Assembly (NCBI RefSeq): GCF_006874465.1
Contig: NZ_VIRL01000009.1
Location: forward strand, 124,001 to 188,000
DNA from: Microbispora bryophytorum
GTDB lineage: Bacteria > Actinomycetota > Actinomycetes > Streptosporangiales > Streptosporangiaceae
Direction of reading: 5' to 3'
Length of the DNA stretch: 64,000 bases
Part shown: positions 2,525 through 51,298 of the stretch, one piece after another
How the letters are laid out: each line of letters opens with the position of its first letter
Position numbering within the stretch: the first letter of the stretch is position 1
Program-made: the position numbers and the translations under genes
The notes under the pieces: generated by a model
Told to the model about the DNA's origin: nothing
The model's input: only the letters and a program-made list of their open reading frames with translations
Database searches by the model: none

Positions 2525-4228
2525 GTGACAGACCGCATCGAGGCAGCCGCCGCTGAACTGCGTCCCCTGCTCCAAGAATTCATCCTCTGGGCGCCGGACA
2601 ACGCACCCGGCAGCGACCCCGACCTCGTGGGCCCCGTCGCCCTGTGGCATCGCCTGATCGCCCGCGACGACGTCGGGCTGTGGAAGCGCGGCGACCTGCG
2701 CACGGTCCTGCTGGAGCGCATACCCCAGGTGGTCGAGGACCCCGACGCCGCCGCGGACGGCATGGTCCCCGCCATCCGGGCCTACCTGACGTTCCTGTCG
2801 TCCACCGGACGGCTCTCGCCGGGCTCGGCGTCCCTGGAGACCCTGCTCGCGGAGCTGGACGAGGTCGAGGACGACTTCGTCGACACGATGGAGGACACCA
2901 TCGCCGAGCGTGACTGGGACGAGGAGGAGGACGAGCTCGACGAGGACGAGGCCGACGAGGGCCTCGGCGACTTCGAGCCGTTCGCCGACGAGATCGGCGC
3001 CCTGCCCACGATCCGGCTGCGTCCCGACACCGAGCTCGCCGATGCGGCCCGCCGGGTGACCCTCATCGCGCAGGCCCGCGACCTGGCGCTGTGGGTCGGC
3101 ACCCGGCGCAAGGTGGGCGAGGAGACGCTGCTCACCGAATCCGAGGTGGACGAGGCGGTGCGCACGCTCGGCCTGCCCGACGCGGGCAACATCTGGAACC
3201 TGTGGAACCTCGCGATCGACCTGGAGTTCCTCGCCCCCGACGGCGACGACACGGTCAGCGTGGACTCCGACACCGCCGCCTGGCCCTTCGAGGACGACGA
3301 CGACGTCCTGGACGCCTGGATGCTCGGCCTCCACTCACTCGACTACGGCGACCCGGAGCTGGACGACGACGATCTCACGCTGGCCCTGTCCGGCCTGACC
3401 CGCGCAGTGCTGATCCGCCTGCTGGCGGCCGGCGGCACGCGGGCGGTGGCCTCGCTGCGCGACGAGCTGGCCGAGGCCGCGGCGGAGTACGACGACCTGG
3501 GCGCCGACGCCTGGGCCGCGGCCGGCGACCCGCTCGCCTCCGCGCTCGCCTGGCTGACCGGCTACGGCATGGCCGCCGTCGAAGGCGAGGCGGTGACCCT
3601 GACGCCGCTCGGCACGGAGGGCCTCGTCCACCTGCTTGACGACGAGGACATCGAGATCGACGCCCGGCCCGCGATCGACGCCATGACCGCGCTCGACCTG
3701 CTGTCGTTCAGCGCCGACATGTCGGAGGAGGAGGCCGACGAGGAGTTCGCCGCCTGGCTCTCCCTGCGCGACCCGGCGCGGGCCGCCTCCGAGCTGCTCG
3801 AAGCCGCCTCCGAGGAGGAGGCGGACGCCCTCGTGCGGGTCCAGGCCGCCAGCCTGGTGGGCTCCCTGGGCGAGGCCGCCATCCCCGCCTGGCAGGAGGC
3901 GCTGAAGGAGCCCTCGCTGCGGCCGTACGCCGCGACGCACCTGACCCAGATGGACGTCGAGGACGCCCCGGAGCCGACCCAGGCGGACACCCACTGGCTG
4001 ATTCTCGACATGTGGACGATCTCCGCCGGGCTCGGCCGGCCGGAGTTCGTGTCCAGCCTGCACGACATCGGCCCGGCGCAGACGCTCATCGGGCTGCTCG
4101 ACGTGATCTGGAAGGTCCACCACCCGCACGCCGAGGAACTGCTGGACCTCATCGGCGAGACCCACCCCGACAAGCAGGTGGTCAAGGCCGCCAAGCGGGC
4201 GCTGTTCAAGGCGCGGTCGGGACGTTAG
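2525..4228 (+). CDS. Acidic hypothetical protein with an Asp/Glu-rich linker
   Basis: The product has 567 residues and starts with GTG (TDRIEAAAAELRPLL). I do not recognise a named family. The N-terminal part (1-130) is helical and soluble. A strongly acidic stretch at about 117-150 (EVEDDFVDTMEDTIAERDWD, then mostly E and D) separates it from a larger helical region that ends in what look like HEAT-type repeats (about 400-567: AASEEEADALVRVQAASLVG, EALKEPSLRPYAATHLTQ). There is no signal peptide or membrane segment, so it is probably a cytosolic adaptor. Similar long acidic proteins are common in actinobacteria. It stands alone between ndgR and mgtC; no regulation can be read. Confidence 0.75.
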   Translation: MTDRIEAAAAELRPLLQEFILWAPDNAPGSDPDLVGPVALWHRLIARDDVGLWKRGDLRTVLLERIPQVVEDPDAAADGMVPAIRAYLTFLSSTGRLSPGSASLETLLAELDEVEDDFVDTMEDTIAERDWDEEEDELDEDEADEGLGDFEPFADEIGALPTIRLRPDTELADAARRVTLIAQARDLALWVGTRRKVGEETLLTESEVDEAVRTLGLPDAGNIWNLWNLAIDLEFLAPDGDDTVSVDSDTAAWPFEDDDDVLDAWMLGLHSLDYGDPELDDDDLTLALSGLTRAVLIRLLAAGGTRAVASLRDELAEAAAEYDDLGADAWAAAGDPLASALAWLTGYGMAAVEGEAVTLTPLGTEGLVHLLDDEDIEIDARPAIDAMTALDLLSFSADMSEEEADEEFAAWLSLRDPARAASELLEAASEEEADALVRVQAASLVGSLGEAAIPAWQEALKEPSLRPYAATHLTQMDVEDAPEPTQADTHWLILDMWTISAGLGRPEFVSSLHDIGPAQTLIGLLDVIWKVHHPHAEELLDLIGETHPDKQVVKAAKRALFKARSGR

Positions 4229-4384
4229 CGGCGCCGGCGAGGCCCGGACGGCTGCGTCCGCCCCGGCCTCGCCGCCACTGGCGTCTCGCCGTCACTGCCG
4301 TCGCTCTCGCCGCTGTCGTCCACTGCCGTCGCTGTCCGTCACGACAGGATGACCAACCCGGGCGTGCGGACTTAATGTGGTCGC

Positions 4385-5107
4385 GTGACCCCCATCTCAC
4401 TAGCGGTGAGCCCTGTGGCGTGGTGGCAGCCGGCCGTTGACCTCGCCATCGCGCTCGTGTTGTCGGCGGCCATCGGGCTGGAGCGGGAGATCCGGCAGAA
4501 GAGCGCCGGGCTGCGCACTCACACGCTGGTGGGGTTCGGCGCCGCGCTGTTCATGCTCGTGTCCAAGTACGGCTTCTCCGACATCCTCGGCGACTCCGTG
4601 GTGCTCGATCCGTCCCGCGTGGCGGCCCAGATCGTCTCCGGCATCGGCTTCATCGGGGGCGGGCTGATCTTCGTACGCCGCGACGCGGTCAAGGGGCTGA
4701 CCACGGCCGCAGCCGTGTGGCTCACCGCCGGAGTCGGCATGGCCGCGGGAGCGGGTCTGTGGCTGCTGGCCGTCGTGGCCACGGTGGGGAACTTCGTCGT
4801 GATGCTGGGGCTCACTTCCCTGGCCGCCCGGCTCCCCCGGTCCAAGCACGCCCAGTCGCGGCTGCGCCTGTCGTACTCGGACGGCCGGGGCGTGCTGCGC
4901 CAGGCCCTGGCCGAGTGCACGAGCCGCCGTTTCGCGGTCGACGAGCTGTCGCTGGACCAGCCGGGTCAGAGCCGGGACACCGGCACGGTCACGGTCACCC
5001 TGCTGATCCACGGCCCCGGCTCCATCGGAGACCTCACGAGCAGGCTGGCCGAGATGGAGGGCGTGCTCACCGTCTCCTGCGCCGACGCCGACACCGAGCA
5101 CATCTAG
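4385..5107 (+). CDS. MgtC/SapB-family membrane protein
   Basis: The product has 240 residues with a GTG start. Four to five hydrophobic segments fill residues 15-150 and carry the family motifs GLEREIRQKSAGLRTHTLVG (31-50) and GFIGGGLIFVR (near 92-102), followed by KGLTTAAAVWLTAGVGMAAG. The soluble C-terminal part (about 155-240) has an ACT-like fold pattern ending in VLTVSCADAD, as in long MgtC proteins. MgtC proteins sit in the inner membrane and are linked to magnesium limitation and inhibition of ATP synthase. The gene stands alone and no magnesium-responsive leader is visible in the 156 bp before it. Confidence 0.88.
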   Translation: MTPISLAVSPVAWWQPAVDLAIALVLSAAIGLEREIRQKSAGLRTHTLVGFGAALFMLVSKYGFSDILGDSVVLDPSRVAAQIVSGIGFIGGGLIFVRRDAVKGLTTAAAVWLTAGVGMAAGAGLWLLAVVATVGNFVVMLGLTSLAARLPRSKHAQSRLRLSYSDGRGVLRQALAECTSRRFAVDELSLDQPGQSRDTGTVTVTLLIHGPGSIGDLTSRLAEMEGVLTVSCADADTEHI

Positions 5108-42227: not shown

Positions 42228-43736
42228 TCAGCCCTGGACGCCGAGCTTCTCCAGGATCAGCTCACGGGCCCGGCCCGCGTCCGCCTTGCCCCGGCTGGCC
42301 TTCATGACGCCGCCGACCAGCGCGCCCACGGCGGCGATCTTCCCGCCGCGCACCTTCTCCGCGGCGTCGGCGTTGTCCGCCAGCACCTGGTCGATGATCG
42401 CCGACAGCTCGCCCTCGTCGCTGACCACCTGCAGGCCGCGCTTGTCCACGACCTCGTCCGGGCCGCCCTCGCCGGCGAGCACGCCCTCCAGCACCTGGCG
42501 GGCCAGCTTGTCGTTCAGCGCGCCGGAGGCGACCAGCTCGGCCACCCGGGCGACCTGAGCCGGGGTGATGGGCAGGTCGGCGAGCACCGTGGCCGACTCG
42601 TTGGCCCGCCGGGCCAGCTCGCCCATCCACCACTTGCGCGCGTCGGCGGCGGGAGCGCCCGCGGCCACCGTCGCCTCGACCAGGTCGATCGCGTCGGCGT
42701 TGTGCATGGCCGCCATGTCCAGGTCGGACACGCCCCACTCCTGCTGGAGCCGCGTGCGCCGCGCCGACGGAAGCTCGGGCAGCGCCGCCTTCAGCGACTC
42801 GACCCAGGCCGGGTCGGGCGCGATCGGCAGCAGGTCGGGCTCGGGGAAGTAGCGGTAGTCCTGCGCCTCCTCCTTCGACCGTCCCGAGGTCGTCTGCCCG
42901 GTGTCCTCGTGGAAGTGGCGGGTCTCCTGCACGATCCGGCCGCCCCCGGCGAGGATCGCCGCCTGACGCTCGATCTCCCCTCGGACCGCCCGCTCGACGC
43001 TGCGCAGCGAGTTGACGTTCTTGGTCTCCGTACGGGTGCCCCACTCGGTGGTGCCGCGCGGCATCAGCGAGACGTTGACGTCGCAGCGCAGCGAGCCCTG
43101 CTCCATCCGCACGTCGGACACGCCGAGCGAGCGCATCACCTCGCGCAGCTCGGTGACGTACGCGCGGGCGACCTCCGGGGCGAGCCGGTCGGTGCCCTCG
43201 ATCGGCTTGGTCACGATCTCGACGAGCGGGATGCCGGCCCGGTTGTAGTCGACGATCGAGTAGTCGGCGCCGTGGATCCGCCCGGTCGCGCCCCCCACGT
43301 GGGTGGACTTGCCGGTGTCCTCCTCCAGGTGCACCCGCTCGATCTCCACGCGGACGGTCTTCCCGTCCACCTCAACGTCCAGGTAGCCGTCCGTGCACAG
43401 CGGCTCGTCGTACTGGCTGATCTGGTAGTTCTTCGGCATGTCCGGATAGAAGTAGTTCTTCCGGGCCATCCGGCACCACGTCGCGATGGTGCAGTTGAGC
43501 GCGAGGCCGATCCGGATCGTCGACTCGATCGCCTTCTCGTTGGCCGTCGGCAGCGAGCCGGGCAGCGCCAGGCACACCGGGCAGACGTGCGTGTTCGGCG
43601 GCGCGCCGAAGGCCGTCGGGCAGCCGCAGAACATCTTCGAGGCGGTGCCAAGCTCGACGTGCGTCTCCAGCCCCAGCACCGGCTCGAAGCGCTCCAGCGC
43701 CTCGTCGTACGGCATGAGCGTCTCAGTGCTGCTCAC
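42228..43736 (-). CDS. gatB: Aspartyl/glutamyl-tRNA(Asn/Gln) amidotransferase subunit B
   Basis: The product has 502 residues with a GTG start. The GatB cradle domain (1-295) has [20 protein letters not shown] with the zinc cysteines (CGCP, CPVC) and [20 protein letters not shown]. The helical and YqeY-like tail (about 350-500) ends [20 protein letters not shown]. It binds the tRNA and phosphorylates Glu- or Asp-tRNA before amidation. The start GTGA overlaps the stop of the DUF4276 gene, so gatB depends on translation of that gene. Normally gatB follows gatA directly. Confidence 0.97.
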
Positions 43737-44323
43737 AGGTAACCAAGTCCCTTCAATGCGTTCCTCGCGTCGGAGACCCAGTCCGCGTACGCGGGCACCT
43801 GGGCGAGGACGTCGAGGTCGATGTTACGAGCGATGTATTCGAAGTAGTCACGAACGGGTTTCCCGCGGCGCGGCGCCACCTCGGCGAGGACCCGCTTGGG
43901 ATCTGCGATCTTCTCGACATCCCGCGGTCGGGCGGGCAGCCGTCCCTGGTCGCTCCCGCTCAACCGGCGCCACACGCCGGCGTCCGCGAGGAGCCAGGCC
44001 TCGGTCTCCTGAACCGGCACCAGCGCGATCACCGGTGTGGGCAGTCCCGAGTCGCGCACGACCCGGTTCGCCTTGTCCCGCTCCCTGTGATCGTTGTGGA
44101 CGAAGAGCAGGTGGCAGTCGCTCGCCAGCTCGCGCAGCGCGCCGGTCGTCCTGCCGTGCTCGTAGATCGACCGGCAGGCGCCGATCTCGGTGCTCTCCAC
44201 GTCGACGGCGCAGCGAGAGGACTGCGCGGTGAGCTCCCGAAGCTGCCGCGAGATCACCACGCCGAGGAAGACCTCGTCGGTCTCGCCCTCGGCGATCAGT
44301 CCGGGCACCAGCGGCCTGCTCAT
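43733..44323 (-). CDS. DUF4276 family TOPRIM-like protein, partner of the adjacent ATPase
   Basis: The product has 196 residues. The N-terminal strand [20 protein letters not shown] (7-26) with an EGETD acid site, the segment [17 protein letters not shown] (72-88) with clustered acids, and [14 protein letters not shown] (101-114) are hallmarks of DUF4276, a family related to TOPRIM nuclease folds. It is read from an ATG overlapping the stop of the SMC-type ATPase, and its own stop overlaps the gatB start. ATPase plus TOPRIM pairs include OLD-type and PARIS-type antiphage systems; in PARIS the second protein is DUF4435, not this family. Function here is inferred from the pairing. It may act on nucleic acid or tRNA. 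Confidence 0.82.
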
Positions 44324-45498
44324 GGGACCTCGCCCACGGCGCTCAGATACTTGCGCACCTGGCGGGGAGAGACGAACGTGCCGGGCTCGCCCTCCGCCCG
44401 CACCGGCTTGGCCACCGTGACCCTGGAGATCCTGTCCCTTTCGGGGTCGACGCGTACGGCGGTGTCGAGGAAGACCAGCGCGTCCGGCCGGAGGCGGTAC
44501 AGCTCGGAGACGACCACCGGCGAGTGCGTGGTGAGGATCACCTGGCGCAACGGCCGGTTGACGCACTCCGGATCGTCGAGATCGGTGACCCTGCCCTGGA
44601 TCCTGCGCAGCAGCTCCGCCAACCGGCTGGGATGCAGCCCGTTCTCGATCTCCTCGATGAGCAGCACTCCGGCATGGTCCGGATCGTGCAGCGCGGCCAG
44701 CAACGCGATGACCCTGAGCGTGCCATCGGACAGCAGAGTGCTGGGTACGGCGCCCTGGCCGTCCACAAGCACGTCGAACGTCCACTCCTGACGCCGGTCG
44801 TCCAGAATCGGCTCGATCCCGGCGATGTCCGGGATCAGCGCCACCATGTCGACGAGGAGTTCCTCGATCGCCCCCTCCGCCTTGAGTCGTCCGAGGACAG
44901 TGGCGAGGTTGCTCCCGTCCGCCCGCAGCGGTCCATGATCTGCCGCCGACGACCAGGAGCGGAGGCGATCCGGGTCGGGCCGGTGCAGACGCCAACCGCC
45001 GAGTTCCCTGTTCAACAACCTCATGTAGCGCGGAGCGTCGGCCTTCTCCCCCGCGAGGGCCTGCAACGCCTGGTCCCTCGCTTCTCGCCCCTTGGTCAGC
45101 TGGTTGTTCACCCAGCCCGGCAGCCCGGCAGAAGCACCTCCGGGGGTCGCAAGAATCCCGCGCGCTTCCGGTACGCCCTCGTCGTCTAGTTCAGCGCCGC
45201 TCTCGAATACTTCTACGAAGAGGCCGTGTCCGAACTGTCCCAGAACGCGAGCCCGGATATCGAACCGAGCCACCGGTTGCCCTTTGCTGACCCGGTGAAA
45301 CAACTCGTGCGGCCGTCCACGGCGGGATGCCAGGAGCGGATCCTTGAATTCCCAGCCGGCAAGGCTCAGGTAATCCAGGGCGTCGAAGAGGTTGGACTTG
45401 CCGCTGGAGTTGGGGCCGACGAGGGCGAGGAACGGCGGGATGTCGAGCTGGAAGTCCAGGAAGGACTTGAAGCCGTCGATCTCGATGCGGGTGATCAT
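44320..45498 (-). CDS. SMC/ABC-type AAA ATPase (AAA_15/AAA_21) of a putative defence pair
   Basis: The product has 392 residues. It opens MITRIEIDGFKSFLDFQLDI with Walker A GPNSSGKS (28-35), an LLSDGTLR signature (255-262), Walker B GVLLIEEIENGLHP (277-290) and the switch segment ILTTHSPVVVSEL (321-333). This is the ATPase head of RecF/OLD-like proteins, with no fused nuclease. The nuclease-like part is the separate DUF4276 gene that overlaps its stop. GGAGGGG precedes the ATG, 25 bp after the gatA stop, so the pair is cotranscribed inside gatCAB. Such placement is unusual and makes loss of the pair costly, since gatB is downstream. Confidence 0.87.
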   Translation of the reverse strand: MITRIEIDGFKSFLDFQLDIPPFLALVGPNSSGKSNLFDALDYLSLAGWEFKDPLLASRRGRPHELFHRVSKGQPVARFDIRARVLGQFGHGLFVEVFESGAELDDEGVPEARGILATPGGASAGLPGWVNNQLTKGREARDQALQALAGEKADAPRYMRLLNRELGGWRLHRPDPDRLRSWSSAADHGPLRADGSNLATVLGRLKAEGAIEELLVDMVALIPDIAGIEPILDDRRQEWTFDVLVDGQGAVPSTLLSDGTLRVIALLAALHDPDHAGVLLIEEIENGLHPSRLAELLRRIQGRVTDLDDPECVNRPLRQVILTTHSPVVVSELYRLRPDALVFLDTAVRVDPERDRISRVTVAKPVRAEGEPGTFVSPRQVRKYLSAVGEVP

Positions 45499-45523
45499 GC
45501 CGCCGTTCCCCTCCCCTCGGCGA

Positions 45524-47014
45524 CTAGAGCGCGGGCGCGCGGGACAGCAGCGGGCCGCCCCACCGGCTCTCGAAGGCCTTCTCCACGGCGGCGCCGACCC
45601 GGTAACAGCGGTCGTCGGCCAGGGTCGGGGCCATGACCTGCAGGCCGACCGGCAGGCCGTCCTCGTCGGCGAGGCCGCACGGCACCGAGATCGCCGCGTT
45701 GCCGGCCAGGTTGGTCGGGATCGTGCACAGGTCGGCGAGGTACATCGCCATCGGATCGTCGGCCCGCTCCCCGATCGGGAACGCGGTGGTCGGCGTGGTC
45801 GGCGAGACCAGCACGTCCACCTGCTGGAAGGCCGCCTCGAAGTCACGCATGATCAGCGTGCGGACCTTCTGGGCCTGCCCGTAGTAGGCGTCGTAGTAGC
45901 CGGACGACAGGGCGTACGTGCCGAGCATGATGCGCCGCTTGACCTCGGGGCCGAAACCGGCCGCCCGGGTCAGGGCCATGACCTCCTCGGCGCTGCGGGT
46001 GCCGTCGTCGCCGACGCGCAGGCCGTACCGCATGGCGTCGAAGCGGGCCAGGTTGGACGAGCACTCCGACGGCGCGATCAGATAGTACGCGGGCAGCGCG
46101 TAGGAGAAGGTCGGGCAGGAGACCTCGACGACCTTGGCCCCGAGCGACTCCAGCAGTTCGACGGCCTCGTTGAACCGGGCGAGCACGCCGGGCTGGTAGC
46201 CCTCCCCGCCGAACTCCTTGACCACGCCGACCCGCATGCCGGCCACGTCGGCGTGCCGCGCGGCCTCGACGACCGCCGGGACCGGCGCGTCGATCGAGGT
46301 CGAGTCGAGCGGGTCGTGCCCGGAGAACGCCTCGTGCAGCAGCGCCGCGTCGAGCACGTTGCGGGCGAACGGGCCGGGCGTGTCGAGCGAGGACGCGAAC
46401 GCGATCAGCCCGTAGCGGGACGAGCCGCCGTAGGTCGGCTTCATGCCGACGATGCCGGTCACCGCGGCGGGCTGGCGGATCGAGCCGCCGGTGTCGGTGC
46501 CGGTGGACAGCGGCGCCTCGTAGGCGGACACCGCGGCCGACGAGCCGCCGGAGGAACCACCGGGAATCCGGGAAAGGTCCCAGGGGTTGTGCGTCGCGCC
46601 GTACGCCGAGTTCTCCGTGGACGACCCCATGGCGAACTCGTCCAGGTTCGTCTTGCCGAGGATCACCAGACCGGCCTCGCGCAGGCGGCGGGTCACGGTC
46701 GCGTCGTACGGCGGGAGCCAGCCTTCGAGGATCTTCGAGCCGGCGGTCGTCGGCATGCCGGTCGTGGTGAACACGTCCTTGTGCGCGATCGGCACCCCGG
46801 CGAGCGGGCCGAGCGTCTCACCGGCGGCGATGCGCTCGTCGACCGCGCGGGCCTGCGTCAGCGCGGACTCCGCGTCCACGTGCAGGAAGGCGTTGACCCG
46901 GCCGTCGACCTCGGCGATCCGGTCGAGGTGGGCCTGGGCGACCTCGACGGCGCTGACCTCTCGGGAGGCGACCAGCGCGCCGAGCTCGGCGGCGGTCTTG
47001 CGAATCAAGCTCAT
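45524..47014 (-). CDS. gatA: Glutamyl-tRNA(Gln) amidotransferase subunit A
   Basis: The product has 496 residues of the amidase signature family. The Ser-cisSer-Lys triad is in [20 protein letters not shown] (Lys), [20 protein letters not shown] and [14 protein letters not shown] (Ser, cis-Ser). It hydrolyses glutamine and passes ammonia to GatB. The ATG at 47014 overlaps the gatC stop by four bases. Downstream, at 25 bp, comes the ATPase gene rather than gatB. It works with GltX and the tRNA-Gln encoded near 7.4 kb. Confidence 0.97.
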
Positions 47015-47310
47015 TCTTCCTCCCCGAGGATCCGCGGCACGCGGAAGCGGTCGTCCTCCACCGCGGGCGCGCCGGACAGCGCGGCCTCGGGCGTGAGGCC
47101 GGGCCGCACGTCGTCGGGCCGGAACACGTTGGTCAGCGGAAGCGCGTGCGAGGACGGCGGAATGTCGTCGGCCGCCACCTCCGCGACGCGGGCGACGGCG
47201 CCGACGATCTGGTCGAGCTGGGCGGCGAAGTGGTCGAGCTCGTCGTCGGCCAGTGCCAGCCGGGACAGCCGGGCGAGGTGAGCGACCTGATCGCGGGTTA
47301 TGGCGGACAT
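47011..47310 (-). CDS. gatC: Glutamyl-tRNA(Gln) amidotransferase subunit C
   Basis: The product has 99 residues, the normal size. It starts [20 protein letters not shown], the conserved GatC helix, and ends with [11 protein letters not shown], the loop that inserts between GatA and GatB. The start was set by this match; an upstream frame extension has no homology. It is the first gene of the gatC-gatA-ATPase-DUF4276-gatB transcript. Confidence 0.95.
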
Positions 47311-47434
47311 GAGTCGTCGAACCCGTTTCATGATGGAGATTGGACCTCCCCATCCTAGGGCTCGCCACCGAGCGCGGCCGACCCGACGAGGCCGCGTCAC
47401 ATGGTCTTAATGCGCCGCCGCCATTTGTGACGGG

Positions 47435-49579
47435 TCAGTGCGGCGCGAGACGGGCACCGCCGCTCTCGCGGTCCCGGAAGGCCGCGCCGAGCCGGCCGCG
47501 TAACCAGGTGGTCGCCTCGCTCGCGGGCATGGGCTTTGCCAGCCACCATCCCTGGCCCGCCTGGCACCCCATCTCGCGCAGCAGCGTCGCGACCTCCGGC
47601 GACTCGACCCCCTCGGCGACCGACCTCAGCCCGAGGGACCGTACGAGGTCGATGATCGAGCGGACGATCCGCTCGTCGTCCGGCGAGTCCCCGAGCCGCC
47701 GGACGAACGACGCGTCGATCTTGACCTCGGAGACCGGGAGCCGCTGGAGCCGGACGAGCGAGGAGTAGCCGGTGCCGAAATCGTCGAGGGCCAGCTGGAT
47801 GCCGAGACCGGCCAGGGTGCGGATCGTCTCGGCGCTGTAGGCCTGGTCGGTCATGAGGATGCGCTCGGTGACCTCCAGGCGGATGGCCTCGGGAGGCAGG
47901 TCCAGCTTCTCCAGCCCGGACTCCAGTTGCTCGGGCAGGCTCGAATCCAGCAGGTCGCGGGCCGACACGTTGACCGAGACCGGCACCTCGACGCCCGCGT
48001 GCCACCACCGGGCCGCCTGCCGCAGCGCGTGGCCGATGACGTGCTGGGTGAGCTCGCGCATCAGGTACGACTGCTCGGCGAGCGGGATGAACTCGGTGGG
48101 CGAGATCGGCCCGCGCACCGGGTGCCACCAGCGCAGCAGCGCCTCGATGCTCTCGACCCTGCCGTCCTCCAGGCTCACCTTGGGCTGATAGTGAAGCTCC
48201 AGCTCGTCGGCGTCGATCGCCCGGCGCAGGTCGCCGAGAAGGCTCAGCCGCTCCGGCGAGTTGCGGTCCTTGCACGGCAGGTAGAACTCGACGCCGGTGC
48301 GGCCCTCCTTGGCCAGATACATCGCCACGTCGGAGCGTTGCATGAGCAGCTCGAAGTCCGGCGCGTGGTCGGGATAGAGCGCGATGCCGATCGACGCGTC
48401 GAGGTCGAAGGTCATGCCTTCGAGGCGTACCGGCTCGGTCACGGCGACCCGCAGCCGCGAGGCGACCTCCTTGGCCGCCTGGGCGTCCCTGATCGACGGC
48501 AGCAGCACCGCGAACTCGTCCCCGCCGAGGCGGGCCACCACGTCACCGGGCCGCACGCTGTGGGTGAGCCGGTGGGCCACGATCTGCAGCAGCCGGTCGC
48601 CGACCGGGTGGCCGAGCGTGTCGTTGACCTCTTTGAAGCGGTCAAGGTCGAGCAGGAGCAGCCCCACCCGCTCGCGCTCGCGCGCCTCGGTCAGGGCCTC
48701 CTCGGTGCGCAGGATGAGCATCTTGCGGTTCGGCAGGCCGGTGAGCCCGTCGTGGGTGGCCTGGTGGTCGCGGCGCAGGGAGAGCGTCGCGGTGAAGTAG
48801 ACCGCGGTCAGCGGCGCGACGAACAGCGGCACCAGGGCCGTGGAGTGCGCCATCACGACCACGACGAGCGGCGCGAGCCCGAGCAGCGCGCCGTAGACGA
48901 GGGACTGCGGGCCGACCGACGCCTTCATCACCCTGGCGAGCGGCCGGCGCTCGTGCAGCGCCACCGCCTGGCAGACCAGGATCGCGCGGACCGCGAAGTA
49001 CGCCGCCGCGGCCAGCACGATCGCCGGGATGTCCGCGCCGTCGGGTGTCCAGGGCACGCGGGGCGCCGGATGCACGCCGAACGCGGCGAAGGCGGCCGCG
49101 GCCGCCGTGCAGGCCAGGGTCACCTGGGCGAGGTTGAACAGCACCCGGTGCCAGGCCCTGCGATGCACCAGGCCGCTGACCACCACGGCGACCGCCTGCA
49201 TCAGCACCGCCGTCGGCAGGCCCTGGTACATCAGCACGGCGAAGGTGAACATCGTGGAGGTCGGCGTGCCCCCGACCAGCGTCGAGGAGCTGAACGTGAC
49301 CGGGCGCAGCTCGCCCAGCACCACCAGGACGGTCAGCATCCAGAACAGCGGAGTGCGGGCCGCCTCGCCCAGCTCGCCGAAGCCGAGCCGTACCTGCGTG
49401 ATCACCAACGCGGTGACACCGACGGCGGTGACCGCCGTGAGGTAGGCCCACAGGGGCGAGCCGGGGCGCGGTCCGGTGTCCCGGGTGTCGACGGGCGCGG
49501 ACATTTCGCCCAGGTCGACGACGGGCAGGAGAACGCGTGGCACCCCGGCGAACGGCATAAGACCGCGTGAAAGCGTCAT
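47435..49579 (-). CDS. Membrane GGDEF-EAL cyclic di-GMP protein
   Basis: The product has 714 residues from the ATG at 49579, which lies ten bases after GGGGGG. A membrane part of about eight helices (about 30-270) leads to GGDEF (about 280-440), with VVARLGGDEFAVLLPS and an RPGD inhibitory site, and EAL (about 450-700), with EALLRWW, IRLEVTERILM and ALDDFGTGYSSLVRLQRLPV. All key residues of both domains are visible. It has no PAS domain, unlike the protein at 34.8 kb, and resembles the RmdB-type phosphodiesterases of Streptomyces. It lies downstream of nothing in the same direction and precedes gatC by 124 bp. Confidence 0.93.
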   Translation of the reverse strand: MTLSRGLMPFAGVPRVLLPVVDLGEMSAPVDTRDTGPRPGSPLWAYLTAVTAVGVTALVITQVRLGFGELGEAARTPLFWMLTVLVVLGELRPVTFSSSTLVGGTPTSTMFTFAVLMYQGLPTAVLMQAVAVVVSGLVHRRAWHRVLFNLAQVTLACTAAAAAFAAFGVHPAPRVPWTPDGADIPAIVLAAAAYFAVRAILVCQAVALHERRPLARVMKASVGPQSLVYGALLGLAPLVVVVMAHSTALVPLFVAPLTAVYFTATLSLRRDHQATHDGLTGLPNRKMLILRTEEALTEARERERVGLLLLDLDRFKEVNDTLGHPVGDRLLQIVAHRLTHSVRPGDVVARLGGDEFAVLLPSIRDAQAAKEVASRLRVAVTEPVRLEGMTFDLDASIGIALYPDHAPDFELLMQRSDVAMYLAKEGRTGVEFYLPCKDRNSPERLSLLGDLRRAIDADELELHYQPKVSLEDGRVESIEALLRWWHPVRGPISPTEFIPLAEQSYLMRELTQHVIGHALRQAARWWHAGVEVPVSVNVSARDLLDSSLPEQLESGLEKLDLPPEAIRLEVTERILMTDQAYSAETIRTLAGLGIQLALDDFGTGYSSLVRLQRLPVSEVKIDASFVRRLGDSPDDERIVRSIIDLVRSLGLRSVAEGVESPEVATLLREMGCQAGQGWWLAKPMPASEATTWLRGRLGAAFRDRESGGARLAPH

Positions 49580-49762: not shown

Positions 49763-51298
<1,536 letters not shown>

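Follow-up and report, generated by a model that had tools for sequence, protein, structure and literature searches.

The window analysed here is a stretch of 64,000 nucleotides (nt) of Microbispora bryophytorum (Streptosporangiaceae, Actinomycetota; assembly GCF_006874465.1, contig NZ_VIRL01000009.1, positions 124,001 to 188,000 of the forward strand), in which two genes encoding an ATPase and a DUF4276 protein, below called the pair or the cassette, lie inside the gatCAB operon. The open reading frames (ORFs) of this operon follow each other on the minus strand in the order gatC, gatA, ATPase, DUF4276 and gatB, with the following features.

45524..47014, minus strand: gatA, the upstream gene, with a secure Pfam match
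45524..45550, minus strand: 3' end of gatA ([11 protein letters not shown]), which lacks the strong ribosome-binding word AAGGAGG (LLKEAPAL, TGA) of cassette-free relatives
45499..45523, minus strand: gap of 25 nt with a GGAGG-type ribosome-binding word ahead of the ATPase gene
44320..45498, minus strand: ATPase gene, 392 amino acids, AAA_21/AAA_15, with a head of the SMC/Rad50/PtuA type; putative sensor
45004..45363, minus strand: residues 46-165 of the ATPase, hypervariable and mosaic; putative recognition domain
43733..44323, minus strand: DUF4276 gene, 196 amino acids; putative nuclease effector
43733..43760, minus strand: 3' tip of the DUF4276 gene, holding GAAGGGA as candidate ribosome-binding word of gatB, and also the GTGA overlap; retained in deletion scars
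42228..43736, minus strand: gatB, the downstream gene, with a secure Pfam match

The spacing given in the original prediction was borne out, with 25 nt from the gatA stop to the ATPase start, an ATGA overlap between the genes of the pair and a GTGA overlap between DUF4276 and gatB, as were the motifs GPNSSGKS and LLIEEIE, both found in the ATPase. The DUF4276 protein contains EGETD and HNDHRERD, and its conserved residues are E12, G13, D16, H76, D78, E106, E108 and K143. Searched against Pfam, the ATPase matched AAA_21 (E = 4e-33) and AAA_15 (E = 4e-17), and the small protein matched DUF4276 with E = 6e-7 and 30.4 bits, barely above the cut-off of 30.2. A consensus scan of positions 43500-47500, which says little in a high-GC actinomycete, gave no promoter and no terminator.

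Relation of the pair to known defence systems

The best PADLOC models were HEC-01A (PDLC04184, E = 8e-86) for the ATPase and HEC-01B (PDLC04210, E = 1e-37) for the DUF4276 protein, whose gene adjoins that of the ATPase through the ATGA overlap. By best profile match, the pair is thus a predicted member of the candidate defence system HEC-01 (Hma-embedded candidate 01, PADLOC-DB), which has the same order of ATPase then DUF4276; the original prediction, which had set the pair apart from PARIS and called it a defence-type combination of an ATPase and a DUF4276 protein, agrees with these matches. HEC-06 is named among several validated HECs (2026 paper, PMC12988326), and HEC-01 is listed as an annotated defence system in one gut species (PMC12724379). 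Searches of the literature for DUF4276 or PF14103 found no papers, and those for gatA/gatB and gatCAB found nothing on such an arrangement, with a thin coverage of preprints and subscription journals in both cases.

PARIS (AriA/AriB) similarly combines an ABC-type ATPase sensor with a small nuclease, the two being sometimes fused (PMC12409363). An AriA model matches the window ATPase at E = 8e-33, well behind HEC-01A, and no AriB model appeared among the 12 PADLOC families matched by the DUF4276 protein up to E = 10, although HMMER filters limit weak matches; membership of PARIS was rejected because the partner protein has no AriB model. The OLD family (class 1-3; Gabija GajA, retron Eco8) shares an SMC-like ATPase head, but joins ATPase and Toprim in one chain, whereas the window pair consists of two separate ORFs, and neither the helicase partner gene of Gabija nor the reverse transcriptase partner gene of the retron lies between gatA and gatB. 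In Foldseek, the ATPase model matched best with PtuA of Septu (8eea, E = 2e-14), whose partner is PtuB, an HNH nuclease, and not a DUF4276 protein (PMC12409363 and PDB titles). Fold comparison indicated a weak resemblance of the DUF4276 model to the OLD Toprim, and the DUF4276 profile had no credible match in the PDB; the label "TOPRIM-like" of the original prediction is plausible.

A resident group with exchanged versions

The window DUF4276 protein has matches in 60 of 200 family genomes, and gatA, ATPase, DUF4276 and gatB are consecutive in all 30 loci of the best family matches (L001 being the window itself), which goes beyond a chance arrangement. The coordinates of gatA and gatB were paired in 134 of these 200 genomes, those nearest to the window, its own genome included. 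A DUF4276 match lies inside the gap in 51 of the 134, the two gat genes are at most 60 nt apart in 57, and the remainder comprises gaps of 61-600 nt (13 genomes) and gaps above 2.3 kb with no DUF4276 match (13 genomes). The pair is present in 20 of 44 genera, 9 of which also contain pair-free members. Of the 64 rows with a DUF4276 match in these genomes, the gap accounts for 52; the other 12 lie at different sites and are all weak (E 3.8e-9 or worse). Many relatives keep the pair between gatA and gatB; the pattern named as refuting in the original prediction, with the pair at other places in close relatives and no constant neighbours, was not observed.

The nearest named loci belong to Microbispora. 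In total, 14 of 27 loci from named genomes lie at gat with the four genes consecutive; 13 come from Microbispora, Nonomuraea, Streptosporangium or Actinomadura, and the last from L045, a distant actinobacterial metagenome-assembled genome (MAG). In the order of this MAG, 6 of 149 genomes matched, the MAG included, and one locus of the same order (L117) has gatC, gatA, ATPase, DUF4276 and gatB in series. A phylum-wide profile search, with at most 7 candidates scored per genome, so that a missing match means little, matched 5 of 396 genomes, namely the window's own and four others, near which gatA and gatB were not seen in stretches of at most about 6 kb per side, shorter at contig ends. The idea of a general gatA/gatB hotspot in the class was set aside: class genomes outside the family show a gatA-gatB gap of 1.2-12 kb in 12 of 128 cases, gap lengths only being considered. 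Other content was also observed at the junction: in another clade of the family (L091-L097), a gap of 2.4-4 kb holds opposite-strand ORFs whose products look secreted and cell-wall-anchored, and in one genome (L076, about 3280-4510) a surface-protein-like ORF lies between the pair and gatB, on the strand opposite to gatA.

A careful tree was built from 72 DUF4276 proteins, leaving out fragments, duplicate loci and the malformed L058, L061 and L074, the types of which were set by eye. All 55 gat-embedded rows fall on one side of a 100/100 branch and 16 of 17 non-gat copies across it, a long-branched copy from Bacteroidota being placed among the gat rows. HEC-01-like copies taken from other sites form a separate group, one long branch apart; as they were found via the window protein or its motifs, further members of the gat group at other sites may have escaped detection. 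On Streptomyces plasmids, two degenerate relatives of the pair (L106:5033-6633 and L108:3843-5441) were observed, which join the gat side of the DUF4276 tree.

The gat side holds deep types that are about 30% identical, namely I (that of the window), II and III, and such versions substitute for each other between gat genes that are 95-99% identical. A quick gatB tree of 94 rows requires no fewer than 12 switches of type and 20 switches between presence and absence of the pair, counts that fall if only supported branches are used. Each of the 10 Microbispora genomes sampled has the pair or a copy that can be recognised (type I in six, type II in four), between gat genes 92-99% identical to those of the window at the protein level. 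Damage is seen in two of the type II copies, namely a shortened fusion in L058 and an internal deletion of DUF4276 in L061. Compared with the type II strains per 100 nt, the window DNA is 86-99% identical in gatA and gatB and 43-63% identical in the cassette past the first ATPase codons. The L061 ATPase is a recombinant with a type I start and a type II body, and the central domain of the ATPase (residues 46-165) is hypervariable and mosaic in this genus. Most copies have full-length frames and conserved motifs. No recombinase gene was seen in the pair-sized inserts, which the two genes fill.

Some loci have unusual architectures. In L074 (1522-3558), ATPase and DUF4276 of type III form a natural fusion in a single continuous frame, the fusion in L058 is shorter and lacks the DUF4276 start, and in L062 (1516-5339) two pairs in tandem, one of type I and one of type II, separate gatA from gatB.

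The core defence hotspots cDHS1/2 of Pseudomonas aeruginosa similarly hold immune genes between fixed core genes, and their transfer by recombination through the flanks has been proposed (PMC10250203). Here, by contrast, the site is occupied mainly by a single kind of cassette (one kind of pair in three or more deep types, together with the unrelated insert of the other clade), lies inside an essential operon of closely packed genes, and has an altered downstream start-site pattern.

The gatB start site and cassette remnants

Cassette-free loci were read for the gatB start site in 19 of the 57 genomes with a gap of at most 60 nt, hand-picked over genera; one of them, L135, proved to be a scar, in which gatA runs on in frame into the eight final codons of DUF4276. 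In 15 of the 18 abutting cassette-free operons (9/10 with gaps of at most 2 nt and 6/8 with gaps of 8-60 nt), the gatA end holds a strong ribosome-binding word for gatB, typically AAGGAGG within LLKEAPAL, with TGA at the gatB start. Of the 57 pair loci, only the distant L045 has this word, and none of 11 scars does; in pair loci, gatA mostly ends in LLSKAPAL or alike, with TAG or TAA. With the cassette, weaker candidate words are found instead in or just behind DUF4276, mostly in its last codons. An overlap of 4 or 8 nt joins DUF4276 to gatB in 37 of 57 pair loci, and gatB is preceded in the last DUF4276 codons by GAAGGGA in type I loci with an overlap and by GGAAGGA in most type II loci; the remaining type II and the type III copies show no more than a GGAG- or GAGG-like word at a distance of about 16 nt. 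In the 18 of 57 pair loci lacking this overlap, the word sits in the spacer.

Remnants retain this tip. Twelve of the 13 operons in the 61-600 nt gap class were read; a DUF4276 tail can be recognised at the end of 9 of them, that of L084 is doubtful and the other two have none. Ten scars were translated, including L079 (770 nt), and most begin with ATPase-like codons; one frame is open into gatB in 6 of 10, three of them from one genus. As this proportion is not significant, the scar frames were rejected as proof of selection. With L135 counted as empty, all 65 rows with a cassette or scar lack the strong word, as do 4 of the 19 empty ones. On supported independent pairs of the tree, the association of cassette and missing word held in 4 of 4 informative cases (p = 0.125).

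No glutaminyl-tRNA synthetase (GlnRS) or asparaginyl-tRNA synthetase (AsnRS) was found above curated cut-offs in the host genome, so that GatCAB should be the sole route to Gln- and Asn-tRNA and therefore essential, as follows from established knowledge for such a host. The claim of the original prediction that the pair forms an essential-gene lock, its removal silencing gatB, is supported indirectly, in a modified form, by the absence of the strong word at the gatA end, the candidate site at the cassette tip and the absence of both synthetases; the pair itself, often absent or decayed, is not indispensable.

Interpretation and alternative explanations

We favour, with a probability of about 0.6, an allelic HEC-01-like two-gene immune cassette resident at the gatA/gatB junction and partly locked into the essential gatCAB operon. 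As far as sequences go, the resident group, the replacement of versions, the hypervariable ATPase domain, the word pattern and the scars keeping the tip can be read directly; the activity is argued by analogy. The ATPase would sense an invader through its variable domain and activate or release the DUF4276 protein, which, as a putative metal-dependent nuclease, would cut nucleic acid and stop the infection. Models for these steps are PARIS, in which sensing of phage proteins by AriA leads to the release of the tRNase AriB (PMC12409363), and OLD systems, a second analogy for ATPase sensing and nucleic-acid cutting (PMC10568477). The cassette would spread by ordinary homologous recombination through gatA and gatB, which would explain why the group stays at its site. 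Translation of gatB would lean on the cassette tip, so that clean excision would be selected against and loss would proceed by internal deletion; such a takeover of the start site would explain remnants keeping the tip.

Several observations weigh against this reading and slightly lower our confidence in it. None of three operons with gaps of 150-300 nt has the strong word, the gatA end keeps a weak one such as AAGG in 35 of 57 pair loci, and the dN/dS result was also unfavourable. More tentatively, the cassette may be self-locking, carrying the gatB ribosome-binding site in its own last codons and open to exchange for a new specificity or to hollowing out but not to clean removal, with an effector that may act on Gln- or Asn-tRNAs; tRNA as the target is a possibility, position alone suggesting the link.

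The start-site pattern, the scars retaining the tip and several decayed copies would also suit a selfish addiction cassette, in which a toxin-like effector held by the ATPase is kept mainly through takeover of the gatB start site and gives the host little in return. This appears unlikely, as the diversified, mosaic, recognition-like domain and the swapping of alleles argue for recurrent selection on specificity, and the inserts show no recombinase gene. A module that monitors or acts on the GatCAB pathway, for instance by cleaving tRNA-Gln or tRNA-Asn, would account for the operon position, as the original prediction had suggested: one DUF4276 group keeps to the gat junction over a deep divergence and two orders, the host seems to form Gln- and Asn-tRNA via GatCAB only, and the Toprim nuclease AriB of PARIS cleaves tRNAs including tRNA-Asn (PMC12409363). 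We nevertheless consider it quite improbable, given the 57 of 134 family genomes in which gatA and gatB are close together without the pair, the frequent absence, swapping and hypervariable ATPase domain, which are unlike housekeeping, and recombination through the flanks, which accounts for site fidelity. Passive insertion in an ancestor, with vertical inheritance, sporadic loss and no function at the site, fits the single group in the DUF4276 tree and the intermediate states of decay, but is very improbable in view of the type switches on the gatB tree, the within-genus replacement by versions about 30% identical and the intact frames and motifs of most copies; a purely vertical relic was rejected on account of these switches.

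Elsewhere in the window, positions 49829-51298 of the plus strand encode, as judged by eye, a cellulase-like secreted protein with a Ser/Pro-rich linker and a long antisense open frame.

Defence genes have mostly been sought in islands and mobile elements. Such a gene pair was known as a candidate kind, whereas the literature searched had nothing on its lasting, exchangeable residence inside an essential operon or on the gatB start-site pattern. If true, a fixed slot of this kind, with its allele swapping, hypervariable sensor-like domain and taken-over start site, would show how an immune module can persist very long without mobility genes, and the tightly packed genes of essential operons would become a place to look for other immune modules. 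HEC-01 is also made testable, as close strains provide matched alleles that differ chiefly in the recognition region of the ATPase. Should the self-locking reading hold, these actinomycetes would possess a lasting, operon-expressed immune slot inside a translation operon.
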